The position numbers were made by a program, and so were the translations under genes. A DNA stretch of 64,000 bases, taken from positions 744,001 to 808,000 of the forward strand of contig JAWPMO010000001.1 in the NCBI GenBank assembly GCA_033344875.1, in the 5' to 3' direction. The DNA is from Ilumatobacteraceae bacterium (GTDB lineage: Bacteria > Actinomycetota > Acidimicrobiia > Acidimicrobiales > Ilumatobacteraceae). The notes below the pieces were generated by a model. That model worked only from the letters and a program-made list of their open reading frames with translations, made no database searches and was not told the origin of the DNA. This document shows, in pieces, positions 17,051-25,463 of this stretch; position 1 is the first letter of the stretch, and every line of letters begins with the position of its first letter.

Positions 17051-17569
17051 GTGCGTACAACCGACCCGACCGAACGGTCCTCGAACACGACCGCCCTGGT
17101 GTCGCTGCAGATCAACGGCGAGGAACGTTCCGTCGCCGTCGAACCGCGACGGGTCCTGCTCGACGTGATCCGCGACGACGTCGGTTTGACCGGCACCAAG
17201 CAGGTCTGCGAGATGGGCAACTGCGGGGCGTGCACCGTGCTGCTCGACAACGAGGCGGTCTATTCGTGTCTCGTGCTCGGCGTGGAGTGCGACGGCCGGT
17301 CGGTCGAGACGGTCGAGTCGCTGGCCGACGGCCCCGACCTCCACCCGATCCAAGCGGCGTTCGCCGACTGCGACGCGTTCCAATGCGGCTTCTGCACTCC
17401 GGGCCAGATGATGAGCATCGAAGCCCTCCGCCGTCGCCGTGCTGCCGCCGACGAGCCCGGAGACCTCGACGCCGACATCGGCAGTTCGCTCGCCGGCAAC
17501 CTGTGCCGGTGCGGCGCCTACCGCCACATCCTCGACGCCGCCCGGATGGCGCTGGGAGACGACCGGTGA
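17051..17569 (+). CDS. Molybdenum hydroxylase, [2Fe-2S] subunit (PaoA/CoxS type)
   Basis: A 172-residue iron-sulfur subunit with both expected clusters. The plant-type [2Fe-2S] ligands are Cys53, Cys58, Cys61 and Cys73. The alpha-helical cluster has Cys112 and Cys115 (QCGFC) with Cys152 and Cys154 (LCRC). It starts with GTG after a strong GGAGGT at 17042-17047. No Tat signal is seen, so the complex is probably cytoplasmic, unlike E. coli PaoA. It overlaps the large subunit by GTGA. Confidence 0.93.
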   Translation: MRTTDPTERSSNTTALVSLQINGEERSVAVEPRRVLLDVIRDDVGLTGTKQVCEMGNCGACTVLLDNEAVYSCLVLGVECDGRSVETVESLADGPDLHPIQAAFADCDAFQCGFCTPGQMMSIEALRRRRAAADEPGDLDADIGSSLAGNLCRCGAYRHILDAARMALGDDR

Positions 17570-19830
17570 AGACCGAGCAGGCCACCGACCTCGCCGACTG
17601 GGACGAGGGTCGCGACATGCGCGAGCTCGGGTCGTCGTCACGCCGGCGCGAGGCCGAGGACAAATTGACCGGCTCGGCCCGGTACGCCGCCGACACCCGG
17701 CTCCCCGACCAACTGCAGCTCACGTTCGTCCGCAGCCCGCACCCGCACGCCGAGGTGACCTCGATCGACGCGTCCGAGGCGCTGAACGTGCCCGGTGTCG
17801 TCGCCGTGATCACCAACGACGACCTACCCGACGACCTGACCTGGTACGAGGAGGAGCTGCCCTTCTTCGCGGAGATCGCGCGTTTCGTCGGCGACGAGGT
17901 GGCCGCCGTGGTGGCACGCACGCTCGACGCCGCACGAGACGGCGCTGCCGCCGTCCACGTGGAGTACGCGCTGCTCGATCACGTGACCGATCCGGTCACA
18001 GCACTCGGCGCCGACGCACCGTCGATCCACGGTGATTCCAACCTCGTCGCCGAGCCCGAGGTCACCGAGCGAGGAGACGTCGAGACGGCACTCGACACCG
18101 CTGCGTTCGTCGTCGAGTCCGAGTACCGCACTCCCACCGCGATCCACAATGCACTCGAACCGCACGGCGCCGTCGCCCACTGGCACGGTGACCAACTCGA
18201 CCTCTGGGCCTCGACGCAGGGGGTCAACGACGTGCGCGAGATGGTCGCCGAGGCACTCGGCCTCCATCATCAGCAGGTGCGGGTCGTCGCCGATCACATC
18301 GGCGGTGGGTTCGGGGCCAAGCAGGTCCCGTGGAAGCCGACGGTGGCGGCCGCGCTCGCGTCGCGTCTCACCGGTCACCCGGTCCAGGCGATGAACGACC
18401 GACGCGGCGAGAACCTCGCCGCCGGCAAACGGAACGGCACGGTCCAGCGCCTCCGTCTCGGCGCCGACGCCGACGGACGGCTCGTCGGCATCGACGCCGA
18501 CCTGATCGCCGACAACGGCGCGTACGGCGTCGCCGGCGAGGCCAGCAACGTCGCCGGCAGTTACCGGCACCTCTACCGCTGTGACGCCGTCAGGACCCGC
18601 TCCAGGCGGGTCTACACGAACACCGGCCCGGCGGTGGCGTTCCGAGCCCCCGGGTACGTCGAGGCGGCGTTCGCGTTGGAGTCGGCGATGGACGAGCTGG
18701 CGCACCTGGTCGGCATCGATCCGCTCGAGTTCCGGCGACTCAACCGAGCCGAGACCGACCAGGTCGCGGATCTGCCGTGGTCGTCGCCGTCGGGGCTGCC
18801 GACCGCGATCGACCGCATCGACGAACACCGCATCGAGAGCGGGTCGGCGCCTCCGTCCGGCATGGTGCGCGGACACGGGATCGCCGTCAACGAATGGATG
18901 GCCGCCACGGCGATGCCGCCGGGCTACGCCTGGGCGGAGTTCAACAACGACGGGTCGGTCCACATCGCCACCAGCACCCAGGACATCGGCACCGGCACCC
19001 GTACCGCACTCGCCCAGGTCGCCGCCGAGGAGCTCGGCATCGCGCCGAACCGGATACGCGTGTCGATGGGTGACACCGCCGCCGGTCCCCCGGCACCGAC
19101 CAGCGCCGGGAGTACGACGATCCCGACGATGGCCCCGGCCGTTCGCGCCGCCGCGAGCGCACTCAGAACGCGAGCGCTGGCCGTCGCCGCGCAGCACCTG
19201 CACGTTCCGGCCGACGAACTCCGGCTCGACGACGAGATGGTCCGTGCCGTCGACGACCCCGACACGTCGATACGCTTGGCCGACCTGCTCGAAGCGCTCG
19301 CTCCCGAGGGCATCCACGCCGAGGGAGGGAGGACCGAGACCGCCACCGACGTCAGCCCGAGAACGCACAGCGCCGCGCTGGCCGACGTGCTCGTCGACCG
19401 CGACACCGGCGAGATCCGGGTCGAGCGGCTCGTCGTGGCGCCCGACTGCGGCCGCATCATCGACCGGAAGCTGGCCGACAGCCAGGTGATCGGCGGTGCA
19501 ACGCAAGGCATCGGCTTCGCCCTGTGCGAGGAGCAGCTGATCGACCACCGACTCGGTCATGTGGTCAACGCGAACCTCGAGGACTACCTCGTACCGACGA
19601 TCGGCGACACGTGCGAGATCGTGCACGCCGAGGTCGGCGTGCCCGATCTCGCCGCGAATCCGCTCGGCGTCAAGGGGCTCGGCGAACTGCCGCTGATCCC
19701 CGTCCCGGCGGCAATCGCCAACGCGGTGTACGACGCGATCGGTGTGCGATTCCGAGAGCTCCCACTCACCCGCCGGCGTGTCCTCGAAGCGCTCGCCCTC
19801 GACCCCGCCGACCACGGCGAGGAGGCGTGA
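17566..19830 (+). CDS. Molybdenum hydroxylase, molybdopterin subunit (PaoC-like)
   Basis: A 754-residue catalytic subunit of the xanthine-oxidase family. It has the N-terminal hammerhead domain (FVRSPHPHAEV), the molybdopterin motif GGGFGAK and the active-site glutamate in GVKGLGELPLIP near the C-terminus. At the purine-binding position it has Gln (GAKQ) instead of the Glu seen in xanthine dehydrogenases, and FRAPGY at the next motif. This favours an aldehyde or other hydroxylase over a purine enzyme. The GTG at 17566 overlaps the stop of the small subunit. Confidence 0.92.
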   Translation: MKTEQATDLADWDEGRDMRELGSSSRRREAEDKLTGSARYAADTRLPDQLQLTFVRSPHPHAEVTSIDASEALNVPGVVAVITNDDLPDDLTWYEEELPFFAEIARFVGDEVAAVVARTLDAARDGAAAVHVEYALLDHVTDPVTALGADAPSIHGDSNLVAEPEVTERGDVETALDTAAFVVESEYRTPTAIHNALEPHGAVAHWHGDQLDLWASTQGVNDVREMVAEALGLHHQQVRVVADHIGGGFGAKQVPWKPTVAAALASRLTGHPVQAMNDRRGENLAAGKRNGTVQRLRLGADADGRLVGIDADLIADNGAYGVAGEASNVAGSYRHLYRCDAVRTRSRRVYTNTGPAVAFRAPGYVEAAFALESAMDELAHLVGIDPLEFRRLNRAETDQVADLPWSSPSGLPTAIDRIDEHRIESGSAPPSGMVRGHGIAVNEWMAATAMPPGYAWAEFNNDGSVHIATSTQDIGTGTRTALAQVAAEELGIAPNRIRVSMGDTAAGPPAPTSAGSTTIPTMAPAVRAAASALRTRALAVAAQHLHVPADELRLDDEMVRAVDDPDTSIRLADLLEALAPEGIHAEGGRTETATDVSPRTHSAALADVLVDRDTGEIRVERLVVAPDCGRIIDRKLADSQVIGGATQGIGFALCEEQLIDHRLGHVVNANLEDYLVPTIGDTCEIVHAEVGVPDLAANPLGVKGLGELPLIPVPAAIANAVYDAIGVRFRELPLTRRRVLEALALDPADHGEEA

Positions 19831-20780
19831 TGCAACCGTTCGCCTACCACCGAGCCGACGACTCGTCACGACCCGACGGGCCGGGTACCGAACTCCTCGC
19901 CGGGGGCACCGACCTGCTCCCGGCGATGAAGGTCGGCCTCGTGACCCCCGTGTCGGTGATCGATCTGAAGCACTCCGACCTGAACGACACGATCGAACGC
20001 ACGGCGACCGGCTGGCGTCTCGACGCACTCGCAACCCTCGCCGACGTCGAAGACCACGCGGGGCTGCGTGCCTCGATCCCGGCGATCGGCGAGGCGGCCG
20101 CATCGGCGGCGACCCGACAGCTCCGCACGAGGGCGACGATCGCCGGCAACCTGCTGCAACGCTCACGGTGCAGCTACTACCGGAATCCCGACCTGACCTG
20201 CTGGCTGGAGGGTGGGACCACGTGCTTCGCCCGAGAAGGCCGACACGAACACCACGCCACCGTCGACACCGGCCCGTGCATCTCGACCCAACCGTCCGAT
20301 CTCCCCGGCGTGCTCGTCGCCCTCGATGCACTCGTCGAGGTCCGGGTGGGCGACCAGACGACGACCCGCCCGATCGGCGAGCACTTCTCGTCACCCACCG
20401 ACGAGCGACGGTCGTTGAACACCCTGGCAGCCGGCGAGATCGTGACCGCGGTCATCGTCCCTGCCGCCGACCGTGCCTCGGTCTATCTCAAGGCGATGGA
20501 CCGGGCCGCCTGGCAGTTCGCCCTGGTCGGGGTCGCCGCAGTGATCGCCGACGGTGGCGTCCGCCTCACCGCCGGCGGCGTGGCCCCGGTGCCGTGGCGC
20601 CTCGACGCGGTCGAGCAGCACCTGGCCGGCGTGGCCCCCGATGAGCTGACCGACGAGATCATCGACCTCGCGGCGGCGCTCGCCGGAACCGGCATGGATC
20701 CCCTCCCCGACAACCGGTACAAGGTCACCCTGCTCGCCGGACTCGTCCGACAGGCGCTTCGCCGACTCCGCTCGATGTGA
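19830..20780 (+). CDS. Molybdenum hydroxylase, FAD subunit with [4Fe-4S] loop (PaoB-like)
   Basis: A 316-residue FAD-binding subunit. FAD motifs are AGGTDLLPAMK and TIAGNLLQRSRC. An inserted loop carries four cysteines (Cys114, Cys124, Cys132, Cys150) in the arrangement of E. coli PaoB/YagS, which holds a [4Fe-4S] cluster. So this enzyme should pass electrons through an extra cluster, as PaoABC and 4-hydroxybenzoyl-CoA reductase do. Gene order here is small-large-FAD, while E. coli has small-FAD-large. The ATG overlaps the large-subunit TGA by one base. Confidence 0.92.
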   Translation: MQPFAYHRADDSSRPDGPGTELLAGGTDLLPAMKVGLVTPVSVIDLKHSDLNDTIERTATGWRLDALATLADVEDHAGLRASIPAIGEAAASAATRQLRTRATIAGNLLQRSRCSYYRNPDLTCWLEGGTTCFAREGRHEHHATVDTGPCISTQPSDLPGVLVALDALVEVRVGDQTTTRPIGEHFSSPTDERRSLNTLAAGEIVTAVIVPAADRASVYLKAMDRAAWQFALVGVAAVIADGGVRLTAGGVAPVPWRLDAVEQHLAGVAPDELTDEIIDLAAALAGTGMDPLPDNRYKVTLLAGLVRQALRRLRSM

Positions 20781-20799: not shown

Positions 20800-21750
20800 T
20801 CAGACGATCTCGGCGATGTGGACCACGGCGTCGCCGCGGTTCACCAGCGGGGCCTCGAGGCGCCCGATGACGACACCGGTTCGCGCCGCCTTGATCGTCG
20901 CCAGGCGGCGACCGAAGGAGTTGGAGATCACGCCCAACCGGTCGCCGGCGTCGACCTCGGCCCCGAGCGCGCACTCGATCCGAGCGATCCCGGAGGCACC
21001 GGCGCGGACCCAGCCGGTCTTGCGTGACTCGACGGACGACCGGTCGGGTGAGGTCTCGCCCTCGATCATGCCGAGCGACGCGAGGACGCGGTTGACACCG
21101 GCGACACCGGCGTCGATCGCCCAATCGTCGAACCGCAGTGCCTCGCCGCCCTCGTAGAGCAGCACCGTGGCGCCGTGCTCACGGGCGGCATGGCGAAGGG
21201 ACCCGTCGCGGGTCCGAGCATGGATCATCACCGGTGCCCCGAAGGTCTCGGCCAATGACCGTGTGGCCGGATCGTCGAGATCGGCGCGGATCTGCGGGAG
21301 GTTCGTGCGGTGGTCGGAACCGGTGTGGAGGTCGATGCCGACGTCGCTCGGTGCGACGATCTCGGTCATCATCAGATGCGCCACGCGACCGGCCAGGGAA
21401 CCTCGTGCCGTTCCGGGGAAGGAGCGGTTGAGGTCGCGCCGGTCCGGCAGGTAGCGGTCGCCGGCCATGAAACCGTGCACGTTGACGATCGGCACCGCGA
21501 TCAAGGTGCCGTGCAACGTCTTCGGGTCGATGTCGGCCAGCACACGTCGGATGATGTCGACCCCGCCGACCTCGTCGCCGTGGATCGCGGCGTCGACCCA
21601 CACCGTGGGGCCGTCCTCGCGACCGTGGAGCACGAGCACCGGGAGCGTCACGTCTTCTCCGGTGACGAGCTTCGCGATCGGGAGCCCGACCTCCTGTCGG
21701 AACCCCGGGCGGACCCGGTTCTGCCCGATCGCGAACGACGGACGGGCCAT
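20800..21750 (-). CDS. Succinylglutamate desuccinylase / aspartoacylase family hydrolase
   Basis: A 316-residue zinc carboxypeptidase-fold deacylase. Zinc and catalytic motifs are HGDEVGG, DLHTGSDHR and LLYEGGE. The last 90 residues form a beta domain typical of bacterial members. Relatives remove N-acyl groups from glutamate or aspartate, and the exact amide here is unknown. It overlaps the RimB-like gene by ATGA, so the two are co-translated. The operon is divergent from a RimK-like ligase, which suggests it acts on a ligated amino-acid product. Confidence 0.88.
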   Translation of the reverse strand: MARPSFAIGQNRVRPGFRQEVGLPIAKLVTGEDVTLPVLVLHGREDGPTVWVDAAIHGDEVGGVDIIRRVLADIDPKTLHGTLIAVPIVNVHGFMAGDRYLPDRRDLNRSFPGTARGSLAGRVAHLMMTEIVAPSDVGIDLHTGSDHRTNLPQIRADLDDPATRSLAETFGAPVMIHARTRDGSLRHAAREHGATVLLYEGGEALRFDDWAIDAGVAGVNRVLASLGMIEGETSPDRSSVESRKTGWVRAGASGIARIECALGAEVDAGDRLGVISNSFGRRLATIKAARTGVVIGRLEAPLVNRGDAVVHIAEIV

Positions 21751-22229
21751 CAGGCCTTGCCCCGGTTCTTGCGACGGGTCGAACGCTTGGGGCGGCCGCC
21801 CAGGTACGAACGTCCGGGGTCGACCAGCAGCACGCCGCGCATCGCCTCTCGGCCGACGAGCATCCGGAACCCCATGTCGTCGCGGTTCGCCAGCGTCAGC
21901 TCCGCGTCGAGATCGTGACCGACCACCCTGATCGTGGTGCGGACGACGAGCCGCTCGTCCTCGTGCCCGGTCGAGCTCCTGATCGCCCGTCGATCGACGA
22001 CGGGCAACTCGGAGCGGACCGTATCGACCTCGGATCGCTGCCACGGGTGGACGGCGAACGACACCCATGGAGCGCCGTCGCGTTCGAACTCCTCGATGTC
22101 GAACGCATGGATCGACGACGACCTGGCCCCGGTGTCGAGTTTGGCCTTGACCCAGGGCACGTCGAGGTCGGGAAGCGCCACCCATTCGCGCCAGCCGGCA
22201 ACGGTGTCCGAAGGGCCGTCGTGATTCAC
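21750..22229 (-). CDS. RimB-like retropepsin-type protease (ATP-dependent zinc protease family)
   Basis: A 159-residue protein of the Zn_protease/RimB family, whose retropepsin-like fold is built around LDTGARSSSIHAF (catalytic Asp in DTGA). Other family features are REWVALPDL at the start and FRMLVGREAM near the end. In bacteria it travels with rimK and is thought to trim added glutamates. The tail is basic (RSTRRKNRGK). The GTG at 22229 gives the usual N-terminus; upstream sequence in frame faces the divergent rimK start. Confidence 0.88.
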   Translation of the reverse strand: MNHDGPSDTVAGWREWVALPDLDVPWVKAKLDTGARSSSIHAFDIEEFERDGAPWVSFAVHPWQRSEVDTVRSELPVVDRRAIRSSTGHEDERLVVRTTIRVVGHDLDAELTLANRDDMGFRMLVGREAMRGVLLVDPGRSYLGGRPKRSTRRKNRGKA

Positions 22230-22254
22230 CCTGGTAGTTTCGCTGATCTTGACG

Positions 22255-23445
22255 ATGAAACTCGCAATCCTCTCCCGAGCACCCCGTTCGTACAGCACGC
22301 AGCGGCTCCGGTCGGCGGCGATCGAACGTGGTCACGACGTGAAGGTGCTGAACACGCTCCGGTTCTCGATCGACCTCTCGGGCCGCGAGCCGGATCTCCA
22401 GTTCCGTGGCAAACAGCTCTCGAGCTACGACGCGATCCTGCCGCGGATCGGCAACTCGATCACGTACTTCGGCACCGCGGTCGTGCGGCAGTTCGAGCAG
22501 ATGGACGTGTACACGCCCAACACAGCGAACGGCATCTCGAACTCGCGCGACAAGCTGCGCGCGATCCAGATCCTGTCGCGGCACAACATCGGGATGCCGG
22601 CGACCACGTTCGCCCGTGACCGTGCCGACGTGTTGCCGGCGATCGAACGCGTGGGTGGTGCGCCCGTCGTGATCAAGCTCCTCGAGGGCACCCAGGGGAT
22701 CGGCGTGATCCTGGCACCCGACACGAAGGTCGCCGAGGCGATCATCGAGACCCTGCAGAGCACCAAGCAGAACGTGCTGATCCAGCGCTTCGTCGCCGAG
22801 AGCAAGGGTCGTGACATCCGAGCCCTGGTCGTCGGCGATCGTGTCGTCGCCGCCATGCGTCGCGTCGCGCAGGGTGAGGAGTTCCGGTCCAACGTCCACC
22901 GTGGTGGTCGGGTCGAGGCGGTCGAGCTCGACCCGGCGTACGAGGAGACGGCGGTGCGCTCCGCTCAGATCATGGGTCTGCGAGTGGCGGGCGTCGACAT
23001 GCTGGAGAGCGATCACGGTCCCTCGGTGATGGAGGTCAACTCGTCACCAGGTCTCGAGGGCATCGAGACCGCGACGAAGCTCGACGTGGCCGGAGCGATC
23101 ATCGACTACATCGACAATCAGGTCGCGTTCCCCGACATCGACGTGCGTCAGCGGTTGACCGTGAGCACCGGGTACGGCGTCGCCGAGCTCCTGGTGCACG
23201 AGGGTGCCGACCTGATCGGTTCGACCATCGCCGAGTCGGGTCTGCGAGATCGTGACATCGCGGTCCTGACCCTGCATCGCGGTACCACCGTGATCCCCAA
23301 CCCCAAGGGTTCGCGCGAGCTCGAGGCGGGCGACCGTCTGCTCTGCTTCGGCAAGCTGGAGGAGATGCGGGGCATGATCCCCGAGCGTCGCCGCAAGCGG
23401 GCGCGCGTCAAGAAGCTCCCGAAGCAGCCGATCCCCGAGGCCTGA
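22255..23445 (+). CDS. RimK-like ATP-grasp ligase fused to a TrkA-C domain
   Basis: A 396-residue protein. Residues 1-290 are a RimK-type ATP-grasp ligase (NGISNSRDKLRAIQIL, VVIKLLEGTQGIGV and the metal motif VMEVNSSPGLEG), which adds glutamates or related amino acids to a carboxyl group. Residues about 305-375 resemble TrkA-C/RCK-C (GVAELLVHEGADLIGSTI, LEAGDRLLCFG), a small-ligand sensor domain. The tail is strongly basic (ERRRKRARVKKLPK). The ATG at 22255 follows an in-frame TTG at 22249. The RimB-like and aspartoacylase-like genes lie divergently, 25 bp away. Confidence 0.92.
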   Translation: MKLAILSRAPRSYSTQRLRSAAIERGHDVKVLNTLRFSIDLSGREPDLQFRGKQLSSYDAILPRIGNSITYFGTAVVRQFEQMDVYTPNTANGISNSRDKLRAIQILSRHNIGMPATTFARDRADVLPAIERVGGAPVVIKLLEGTQGIGVILAPDTKVAEAIIETLQSTKQNVLIQRFVAESKGRDIRALVVGDRVVAAMRRVAQGEEFRSNVHRGGRVEAVELDPAYEETAVRSAQIMGLRVAGVDMLESDHGPSVMEVNSSPGLEGIETATKLDVAGAIIDYIDNQVAFPDIDVRQRLTVSTGYGVAELLVHEGADLIGSTIAESGLRDRDIAVLTLHRGTTVIPNPKGSRELEAGDRLLCFGKLEEMRGMIPERRRKRARVKKLPKQPIPEA

Positions 23446-23894: not shown

Positions 23895-25463
23895 ATGACG
23901 TCGTTGCCGCACAGCAGTGTCCGAGGCACCAGGCACATGGTTGCCGCAGCCGATCAACTCGCATCCCGCGCCGGTGACCTGATCTTCGAGCGCGGCGGCA
24001 ACGCCGTCGACGCGGCGATCGCGACGAACGCCGCGATCGCCGTCACCGGACCGCACCTCTGCGGCATGGGCGGCGATCTGTTCGCGCTCGTGCACACACC
24101 CGACGGTGTGGTCGCACTCAACAGCAGCGGCCGAGCCGGGTCGGGCAGCGACGCTGCAGCACTGCGCGACGAGGGAGCGACCTCGATGCCCTTCCGGCAC
24201 GACGTCCGTGCCGTGACCGTGCCGGGCTGTGTCGACGGCTGGATCGCCCTCCACACCCGGTTCGGGTCGATGCCGTTGGAGGACCTGCTGGCACCGGCGA
24301 TCGACCTGGCCGAGATCGGCTTCCCCGCGAGCCCCCTGCTCGCCGGGTCGGTGCAGCGCCTCGACGACGCCGGACGTGCACAGTTGGACGAACTCGCAGC
24401 GCAGGCGACCCGAACCGGTGCCGTGGTGCGACGCCTCGGAGCCGGTCGTGCGTTGCGCGCGATCGCCGCGACCGGTCGTGACGGCTTCTACGGCGGCGAG
24501 TTCGGCGATGGGCTGATACGACTCGGGGACGGTCTCTTCTCCCAGGCCGACCTCGACCGGGATCAGGCCGACTGGGTCGAACCGTTGACGGCTCCGGCGT
24601 TCGGGGTGGACCTCCACACGATCGGGCCCAACTCGCAGGGCTACCTCACCCTCGGCGGTGCGCTCCTCGCCGAGGGTCTCGACCTTCCCGACGACCCCGA
24701 CGACGAGCGGTGGGCGCACCTGCTGATCGAGGCGGCCAAGTTGGCGGGCTACGACCGCCCGGCAGCGCTGCACGAACACGCCGACGGCGCAGCGCTCCTC
24801 GACGCCATCCGGTCGCGGGCCGACCGGCTCGACACCGAGCGCGCCGGCGACTACGCCGTGGCGACCGGGGCCGGCGACACGACCTACCTGTGCACCGCAG
24901 AGGCCGACGGCCTCGCCGTGTCGTTGATCCAGTCGAACGCCTCGGGGTTCGGCTCGTGGCTCGCCGAGCCCAACACCGGCATCAACCTGCACAATCGCGG
25001 TCTCGGCTTCAACCTGATCGAGGGGCACGGCGCCGAGCTCGGACCGGGGCGACGTCCGCCGCACACCCTGTCGCCGGCGCTGGCGACATCGGGCGGCGCG
25101 CTCCGATCGGTGTTCGGCACGATGGGTGGTGACGCCCAGCCGCAGATCCTGTTGCAGGTTGCCGCTCGCCTGTTCCGCCACGGTCAGTCACCCGCGGCGG
25201 CGATCGGTGCCCCGCGGTGGGCGCTCGCCGGACCCGCGACCGGGTTCGACACCTGGAGTGAGCCGAACGCCCAGGTCGTCGACCTCGAGGGTCACGCTCC
25301 CGCGACCTGGACCGAGCTGACGGCCAGGGGGCACCGCACCAATGCGTGTCCGCCTTACGACAGCGGCTTCGGGCACGCCCACGCGATCACGCTCGACGAC
25401 GAAGGGGTGTTGGCAGGCGCCGCCGACCCGCGGGCCAGGGTGTCTGCCACGATCGGCCGCTAG
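23895..25463 (+). CDS. Gamma-glutamyltransferase family hydrolase
   Basis: A 522-residue Ntn-hydrolase precursor, normal for the family. The N-terminal subunit begins GNAVDAAIATNAA. The expected autoprocessing threonine is in GDTTYLCTAEADGLAVSLIQSN, giving two subunits. Ligand motifs near the small-subunit end include FGTMGGDAQPQ. No clear signal peptide is present, so unlike E. coli Ggt it may act inside the cell. The family cleaves gamma-glutamyl amides such as glutathione. Confidence 0.9.
   Translation: MTSLPHSSVRGTRHMVAAADQLASRAGDLIFERGGNAVDAAIATNAAIAVTGPHLCGMGGDLFALVHTPDGVVALNSSGRAGSGSDAAALRDEGATSMPFRHDVRAVTVPGCVDGWIALHTRFGSMPLEDLLAPAIDLAEIGFPASPLLAGSVQRLDDAGRAQLDELAAQATRTGAVVRRLGAGRALRAIAATGRDGFYGGEFGDGLIRLGDGLFSQADLDRDQADWVEPLTAPAFGVDLHTIGPNSQGYLTLGGALLAEGLDLPDDPDDERWAHLLIEAAKLAGYDRPAALHEHADGAALLDAIRSRADRLDTERAGDYAVATGAGDTTYLCTAEADGLAVSLIQSNASGFGSWLAEPNTGINLHNRGLGFNLIEGHGAELGPGRRPPHTLSPALATSGGALRSVFGTMGGDAQPQILLQVAARLFRHGQSPAAAIGAPRWALAGPATGFDTWSEPNAQVVDLEGHAPATWTELTARGHRTNACPPYDSGFGHAHAITLDDEGVLAGAADPRARVSATIGR

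Follow-up and report, generated by a model that had tools for sequence, protein, structure and literature searches.

A RimK-type ligase fused to a TrkA_C/RCK_C domain, with a RimB-like protease and an AstE/AspA-type hydrolase: a putative glutamate writer with two erasers in Actinomycetota

RimK is known from the glutamate tails of ribosomal protein S6 in Proteobacteria. According to the consulted part of PMC11957791, RimK of Escherichia coli and Pseudomonas produces poly-alpha-glutamate, and the Pseudomonas RimB protease both cuts poly-glutamate, for which five or six contiguous glutamates are needed, and raises the synthesis of free poly-glutamate by RimK. The same source states that S6 is without a terminal glutamate in some RimK carriers too, and that the role of RimK and RimB there is an open matter. 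RimK is also tuned by RimA and cyclic-di-GMP, as given in the consulted part of PMC7343187. Here we analyze a locus where a RimK-type ligase is fused to a C-terminal TrkA_C/RCK_C domain and diverges from the genes of a RimB-like protease and an AstE/AspA-type hydrolase. It is carried on a 64,000-nucleotide stretch of DNA from an Ilumatobacteraceae bacterium (assembly GCA_033344875.1, contig JAWPMO010000001.1, positions 744,001 to 808,000 of the forward strand), in the following called the window. With a probability of roughly 0.6 we read the set as an RCK_C-regulated writer of alpha-glutamate with two erasers, an actinobacterial variant of RimK/RimB where the acceptor would be free poly-glutamate or the end of a protein other than S6. 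The set thereby offers a concrete and recurring case for the RimK carriers whose S6 has no terminal glutamate.

The three genes are found where a preliminary description, made from the sequence alone, had placed them, with RimK-TrkA_C diverging from an overlapping RimB-like and AstE-like pair as judged from open reading frame (ORF) coordinates and Pfam. The RimB stop and the AstE start have one base in common (TGATG), and the GTG start of the RimB-like gene is the last start codon ahead of the conserved GWREW. The features are as follows.

22255..23445, plus strand: RimK-type alpha-L-glutamate ligase fused to a C-terminal TrkA_C/RCK_C domain, 396 amino acids from ATG (Pfam, NCBIfam, model structure)
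22255..23127, plus strand: catalytic part of RimK, PreATP-grasp and ATP-grasp, residues 1-291 (structure alignment, contact residues)
23128..23166, plus strand: linker with a conserved FP-x-(I/L)-DVRQ-RL motif, residues 292-304 (alignment A4)
23167..23382, plus strand: TrkA_C/RCK_C domain, residues 305-376, a candidate for ligand sensing or dimer formation (PF02080 at 2e-9; domain model)
23383..23424, plus strand: conserved polybasic tail of the RRxRRxxVxKLPK type (alignment A4)
21750..22229, minus strand: RimB-like retropepsin-type aspartic endopeptidase, Pfam Zn_protease (PF05618; DTGA motif)
20800..21750, minus strand: AstE/AspA-type zinc-dependent hydrolase (PF24827; HGDE, DLNRxFPG)
22230..22254: gap of 25 base pairs (bp) between the divergent start codons, likely a shared promoter region (gap lengths of 77 divergent loci)

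The ligase part has the family profile, the fold and the chain-binding site of a RimK. Pfam assigns RimK at 4.3e-59, Rimk_N at 3.5e-34 and TrkA_C at 2e-9 (37.7 bits, cut-off 27), and the RimK-family model TIGR00768 is passed with 255.6 bits against a cut-off of 143.4. An AlphaFold2 model of the entire protein, built on 33 alignment rows, has a mean predicted local distance difference test score (pLDDT) of 80.8, and its residues 1-293 and 1-292 align to the E. coli and Pseudomonas aeruginosa RimK structures (5zct and 7qyr), respectively, with Z 38.1 over 291-292 residues. The identity to the P. aeruginosa protein is 51% over the structure alignment. The consulted part of PMC10092738 lists S7, R8, S14, R64, S68, R189 and N262 as the residues of Pseudomonas RimK in contact with the glutamate chain. 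All seven are found in the window RimK, and across the 33 aligned rows (15 from the order of the window, including three unfused RimKs, plus 18 taken from loci of a named genome collection) S7, R8, R64, R189 and N262 are present in 33, S14 in 32 and S68 in 31. Since the chain contacts are kept, glutamate is the likely substrate, as far as sequence comparison can tell. The suggestion in the preliminary description that another amino acid may be used thus finds no support, the contact residues being retained in 31 to 33 of the 33 rows.

The model of the entire protein has low confidence at the linker (pLDDT below 50 for residues 292-305). Its structural neighbours were of the ATP-grasp type only, with no RCK_C protein among them, and therefore the C-terminal domain was modelled separately. 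The lone model of the 115 C-terminal residues (56 rows) has pLDDT block means of 84 to 95 for residues 31-90, and its residues 29-100 superimpose on PH0236 (2bkn) with Z 11.4 and a root-mean-square deviation of 1.5 for 72 aligned residues. The next matches were MthK (6oly, Z 11.3), the RCK_C domain of KtrA with cyclic di-AMP (4xtt, Z 11.0) and KhtT (7ahm, Z 11.0), with BusR also among the structural matches, and MthK was the top Foldseek match at 1.4e-6. The matches of the domain to PDB entries by sequence profile are weak (KhtT 9e-4, others 0.01 or worse). That structure might prove the domain to be something other than TrkA-C had been set beforehand as the point on which the description could fail; in the predicted model the domain has the RCK_C fold, and together with the Pfam score this upholds the fusion of a ligase to a TrkA-C/RCK domain. 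In alignment A4 (56 rows) the invariant residues are F16, P17, D20, V21 and L25 of the linker and L54, D58, L62, V70, P72, P74, D84, R85, C88, F89 and G90 of the RCK_C domain. The basic tail announced for the protein does follow TrkA_C and is conserved, with R102 invariant and R105, L112 and P113 kept in 90% or more of the rows; it might bind a glutamate chain or RNA.

The fusion is recurrent. A search across genomes, as proposed in the preliminary description, recovered it in the order of the window, in a sample of the phylum and in the named collection. Of 99 genomes sampled from the order, 12 have the full fusion (13 copies, two of them in genome G027), with full-length relatives 65-89% identical in the 11 genomes other than that of the window, and RimK without TrkA_C is present in three more (G002, G013 and G058), so that 15 of the 99 hold this kind of RimK, fused or unfused. 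The distribution is patchy, and most sampled genomes of the window's own family are without this RimK. In the phylum sample of 246 genomes RimK was detected at 1e-30 in 25, namely 11 with the fusion (two of these, G000 and G006, overlap the order set), eight with an unfused RimK more than 50% identical and six with a distant RimK. The named collection holds at least 571 stretches coding for relatives of the C-terminal portion of the fusion; our figures for named loci concern the best 80 of these, so distant carriers, including those of other phyla, may be missed. By title all of the best 80 are from Actinomycetota, among them Acidimicrobiia, Nocardioides, Agromyces, Agrococcus, Curtobacterium, Leifsonia, Knoellia, Phycicoccus, Salsipaludibacter and others, and RimK is whole in 78 of them, the other two ending at a contig edge. 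No fusion was seen in the plasmid collection, where 43 records have RimK at 1e-30 and none covers at least 80% of the query.

In a quick tree of 55 RimK proteins the window clusters with its Ilumatobacter relatives, the Actinomycetes form one group (support 86), and the three unfused RimKs branch apart from all fusions (support 99), which is consistent with one fusion event. The tree was built on all columns and midpoint-rooted, has long branches, some of them flagged as meeting, and does not tell gain from loss. A recent transfer between classes was considered and dropped, the grouping of the Actinomycetes and of the Ilumatobacter relatives making it unneeded. The two copies in G027 (L043 on contig G027:C35 and L038 on G027:C15) differ in their surroundings, one being beside AstE, while a RimB-like gene lies at a distance of 3.3 kb from the second.

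The partnership with the two hydrolases is seen from co-occurrence. RimB is present in 29 of 32 genomes with RimK of this kind and in none of 32 without (Fisher p 7e-15), and full-length AstE in 28 of 32 and none of 32 (Fisher p 6e-14); the p values are indicative only, as the genomes are related and the negative ones were drawn from lists of genomes without a match and not at random. Every one of the 32 RimK genomes has RimB or AstE or both. Restricted to fusion genomes the counts are 18 of 21 for RimB and 19 of 21 for AstE. Within the order, RimB was found in 12 and full-length AstE in 13 of the 15 genomes with RimK, and neither in the 13 without; the 17 further RimK genomes of the phylum have RimB in 17 and AstE in 15, and both genes were missing from all six genomes with a distant RimK and all 19 phylum genomes with no RimK. 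AstE-like hits that did not enter these counts are weak partial ones in G006 and G064 and two weaker genes in G000. Three genomes (G016, G070 and G077) have RimK and AstE and no RimB, and four (G006, G058, G142 and G315) have RimB and no full-length AstE. It is to be expected, if the functions overlap, that some genomes keep just one of the two. A deacylase had been proposed as part of the same system, and these counts bear it out as a genuine partner.

At the level of gene order the most constant partner in the named loci is RimB, which is within the fetched flank of 78 of the best 80, mostly adjoining RimK, with the two misses in cut loci. AstE lies within the flank of 35 of the 80, among them each of the five Knoellia loci and the majority of those from Nocardioides and Agrococcus; in the flanks of the Agromyces, Curtobacterium and Leifsonia loci, some of them short, none was seen. 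When the arrangement was compared for 96 loci (the window, L032-L046 and L064-L143), RimB alone was divergent from RimK in 44 and AstE with RimB in 33, while an in-line order RimB-RimK-AstE occurred in six, RimB-AstE-RimK in five and other arrangements in eight. The partners stay linked while order and strand vary, which speaks well for a common function. In 77 divergent loci the gap between the start codons, measured from the RimB start nearest the conserved part, ranges from -2 to 143 bp, with 25 as the commonest value and the value of the window. Such a short gap leaves little room for two promoters, so joint control of RimK and the divergent RimB/AstE genes is likely. A motif of about CCATCTTnGCAGG in the divergent gap (22230-22254 in the window, compared with L064-L143) was seen by eye to recur in many Actinomycetes; it may belong to a promoter whose transcripts have next to no leader. 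Clustering of the flanking ORFs of 95 loci gave no further constant neighbour; the largest cluster had merged many ORFs, antisense ones included, and the second occurred in 24 of the 95. RimA was not among the constant neighbours in this ORF clustering, where no search for RimA by name was made.

Both hydrolases have their motifs intact. The RimB-like protein matches Zn_protease (PF05618) at 3.1e-36, and DTGA is found in 98 of 99 RimB hits, the sole miss being interrupted by the locus end, in agreement with the RimB-like partner of the preliminary description. The AstE/AspA-like hydrolase matches AstE_AspA_cat (PF24827) at 1.3e-38, with HGDE in 55 of 55 hits and DLNRxFPG in 54 of 55. Across 29 rows H57, E60, H142, R99, N108, R109 and E200 are invariant, which we take to be the HxxE...H zinc motif and the DLNR of the catalytic domain. 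The closest solved structures are DoeB (6twl, 2e-21) and 3cdx (3.6e-21), and with the model of the DoeB N-acetyl-diaminobutanoate deacetylase the protein scores 91.6 bits, far below the cut-off of 402.7.

We propose the following mechanism. RimK would add L-glutamates successively using ATP, as its fold and active site suggest. The fused RCK_C domain would dimerise like its counterparts in potassium channels and transporters, and on binding a small ligand or an ion it would switch RimK on or off, so that RCK_C might serve as the tuning input to RimK in place of RimA. By analogy with Pseudomonas RimB, the RimB-like protease would bind RimK and cut the chains internally, and the AstE/AspA-type hydrolase would be exo-acting and take off single C-terminal glutamates, because the terminal glutamate of such a chain is an N-acyl-glutamate, the bond type that the AstE/AspA family cuts. 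Free poly-alpha-glutamate or some protein end would be a likelier acceptor than the tail of S6, which serves as such in Escherichia and Pseudomonas.

The choice of acceptor is where the proposed writer and erasers meet the S6 alternative, according to which RimK glutamylates S6 whatever its last residue, RimB trims the tail and AstE is a helper. In its favour the RimK core shares the above-mentioned 51% identity with the P. aeruginosa enzyme and comes close to passing the S6-ligase model, RimB is the known partner, and one fusion genome (G057) has an S6 ending in Glu. That genome is the only one among 19 fusion genomes, none has two terminal Glu, and S6 of the window genome ends in AVSA. A terminal Glu was found in two of nine unfused-RimK genomes with a complete S6 (G142 and G269), and genomes without RimK show it no less often (3 of 19; G003, G029 and G114); the tally excludes G070, G077 and G152, which gave no S6 hit, and G297, where S6 runs off the contig. 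As S6 rarely ends in Glu in fusion genomes, the classical acceptor is not generally available and the acceptor is probably something other than the S6 tail, which makes S6 modification an unlikely explanation. Thus the idea of another acceptor in the preliminary description stands, on the indirect ground that S6 of 18 of 19 fusion genomes has no terminal Glu, while the idea of another amino acid, joined to it there, does not. S18 was also considered as acceptor, as it has a long acidic, Ser/Glu/Asp-rich tail ending in DESEA in the window genome (L001 2383-2835). It was dropped, since acidic S18 tails are widespread in the order sample whether RimK is present or not. A third explanation is that RimK-TrkA_C glutamylates a metabolite or cofactor in the manner of MptN, CofF or LysX, with AstE deacylating an N-acyl-glutamate or another N-acyl-amino acid in that pathway. 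Such RimK relatives do exist, the protein obtains scores with the MptN, LysX and CofF models, every one below its cut-off, and the metabolite deacetylase DoeB is among the nearest solved relatives of AstE. The core is nevertheless nearest to true RimK, as LysX/ArgX structures are farther away (Z 27.3 to 32.5), the poly-glutamate contacts are kept, and the steadiest partner in the named loci is RimB, of which the Pseudomonas enzyme requires the run of glutamates mentioned at the outset (PMC11957791, consulted part), so we regard a small-molecule ligase as quite improbable.

The proposed regulated writer with two erasers also has to be weighed against a number of observations that do not favour it. 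AstE is not essential, as the sister species of the window (G006) has no full-length copy, and it is absent from the fetched flank in 45 of the best 80 named loci, some of which are short and all of which were covered by their flanks only. In G148 and G316, with an unfused RimK and one contig each, the RimB-AstE pair is far from RimK; in the drafts G107, G171, G202, G233 and G286 the pair is on a different contig from RimK, three of these (G202, G233 and G286) being fusion genomes, and in G255 RimB and AstE are separated from each other too. The RimK part obtains 323.3 bits with PRK10446, the equivalog model of the S6--L-glutamate ligase, which is just below the cut-off of 331, and the RimB-like protein 120.8 bits with the NCBIfam RimB equivalog NF052261, below the cut-off of 200. 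RCK_C domains often bind cyclic di-AMP (c-di-AMP), and given three diadenylate cyclase (DAC) domain hits in the window genome we tried it as the ligand. The signature of c-di-AMP-binding RCK_C domains, (I/L)(I/L)x2DxRx5N(I/L)(I/L) in the consulted part of PMC10117811, occurs in none of our 56 RCK_C rows. With the register of the signature columns taken from a profile alignment to KtrC, the Asp position is Gly in 53 rows, the Asn position is never Asn and the Arg position is Arg in 30. Seven other TrkA_C loci tested in the window genome are likewise without the signature, so its absence is a weak test, though c-di-AMP appears unlikely as the ligand.

The missing signature (D-x-R-x5-N absent from 56 of 56 rows) leads to the explanation that RCK_C may be no sensor at all and merely a fixed dimer- or ring-forming domain that sets only the oligomeric state of RimK. 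RCK_C domains can dimerise free of ligand, as reported for BusR in the consulted part of PMC8517857. On the other hand the absence of the signature says little, for the reason just given, and in our judgement the invariant residues of the domain exceed what a plain dimer interface needs; we hold a purely structural role to be possible and would put it forward with some doubt. In one genome (G233), at locus L224 (1930-6304), MgtE and a PhoU-TrkA_C protein are encoded close to RimK-TrkA_C, which may hint at ion sensing. As partners these two were discarded, being beside RimK in that genome alone.

More tentatively, the regulated writer with its two erasers could be part of a widespread non-ribosomal poly-alpha-glutamate cycle in Actinomycetota, where RimK gated through RCK_C by an ion or nucleotide makes free or protein-bound chains, and RimB and an AstE-type carboxypeptidase restore glutamate. 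If true, a sensor of the potassium-channel type on a peptide ligase would tie in the balance of glutamate and so of potassium. We know of no earlier case where RCK_C controls a peptide ligase, and this would be the first if the domain gates it.

A few neighbours deserve mention. A gamma-glutamyltranspeptidase gene (PF01019, 6.5e-88) follows RimK at 23895-25463. We considered it as a fourth partner and rejected it, since among the compared loci it is beside RimK solely in six close relatives (L032, L064, L065, L066, L069 and L110), and the adjacency may be due to chance. On the other side a three-gene molybdenum hydroxylase set of the xanthine dehydrogenase type (17051-20780) stops just short of AstE. 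At L216-L220 the RimB-AstE pair is away from RimK, and at L216 it adjoins a rhomboid-family gene, beyond which lie genes for FtsJ and NAD kinase. At L225 and L226, from two genomes of one family, unfused RimK genes are near penicillin-binding proteins of the MecA_N type.

In the open-licence literature, seen mostly as titles and abstracts, we found no published description of a RimK-RCK_C fusion or of AstE as a partner of RimK/RimB. A term look-up found no mention of TrkA, aspartoacylase or deacylase in PMC11957791, nor of succinylglutamate in PMC7343187.

When compared with known systems, the locus most resembles RimABK of Pseudomonas fluorescens, where a RimB retropepsin is also encoded beside RimK, the glutamate contacts are the same and there is an extra regulatory input. 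Here, in contrast, an RCK_C domain is fused to RimK, an AstE/AspA-type hydrolase is added, S6 is mostly without a terminal Glu, and the genes are mostly divergent and not in one operon. The RimBK hybrid of Desulfotalea psychrophila and others likewise has RimK in one chain with another functional domain, and it did not ligate to RpsF of Pseudomonas, which hints that its role is a different one (PMC11957791, consulted part); there, however, RimB is fused N-terminally, whereas our protein has a C-terminal domain of the sensor type and RimB is separate. RloABC of P. aeruginosa also pairs an ATP-grasp protein with a retropepsin from this Pfam family (PMC12239564, consulted part), but its RloA is a secreted protein and its RloB a transglutaminase-like protein of the membrane, and the window protease is nearer to the RimB model (120.8 bits) than to the RloA models (78.3 bits or less). 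E. coli RimK shares fold and active site (Z 38.1), but is not encoded with RimB according to the consulted part of PMC10092738 and is without RCK_C (structure 5zct stops after the ATP-grasp), and E. coli S6 ends in GDSEE (PMC11957791, consulted part). KtrA, KhtT, MthK and BusR have the RCK_C fold of the C-terminal domain (Z 9 to 11), but are parts of channels, transporters or a transcription factor and not of a ligase, and the signature of the c-di-AMP-binding RCK_C regulators is not found in the window domain. RimK, RimB and RCK_C are thus each known, while the RimK-RCK_C fusion and the partnership with AstE appear to be new.

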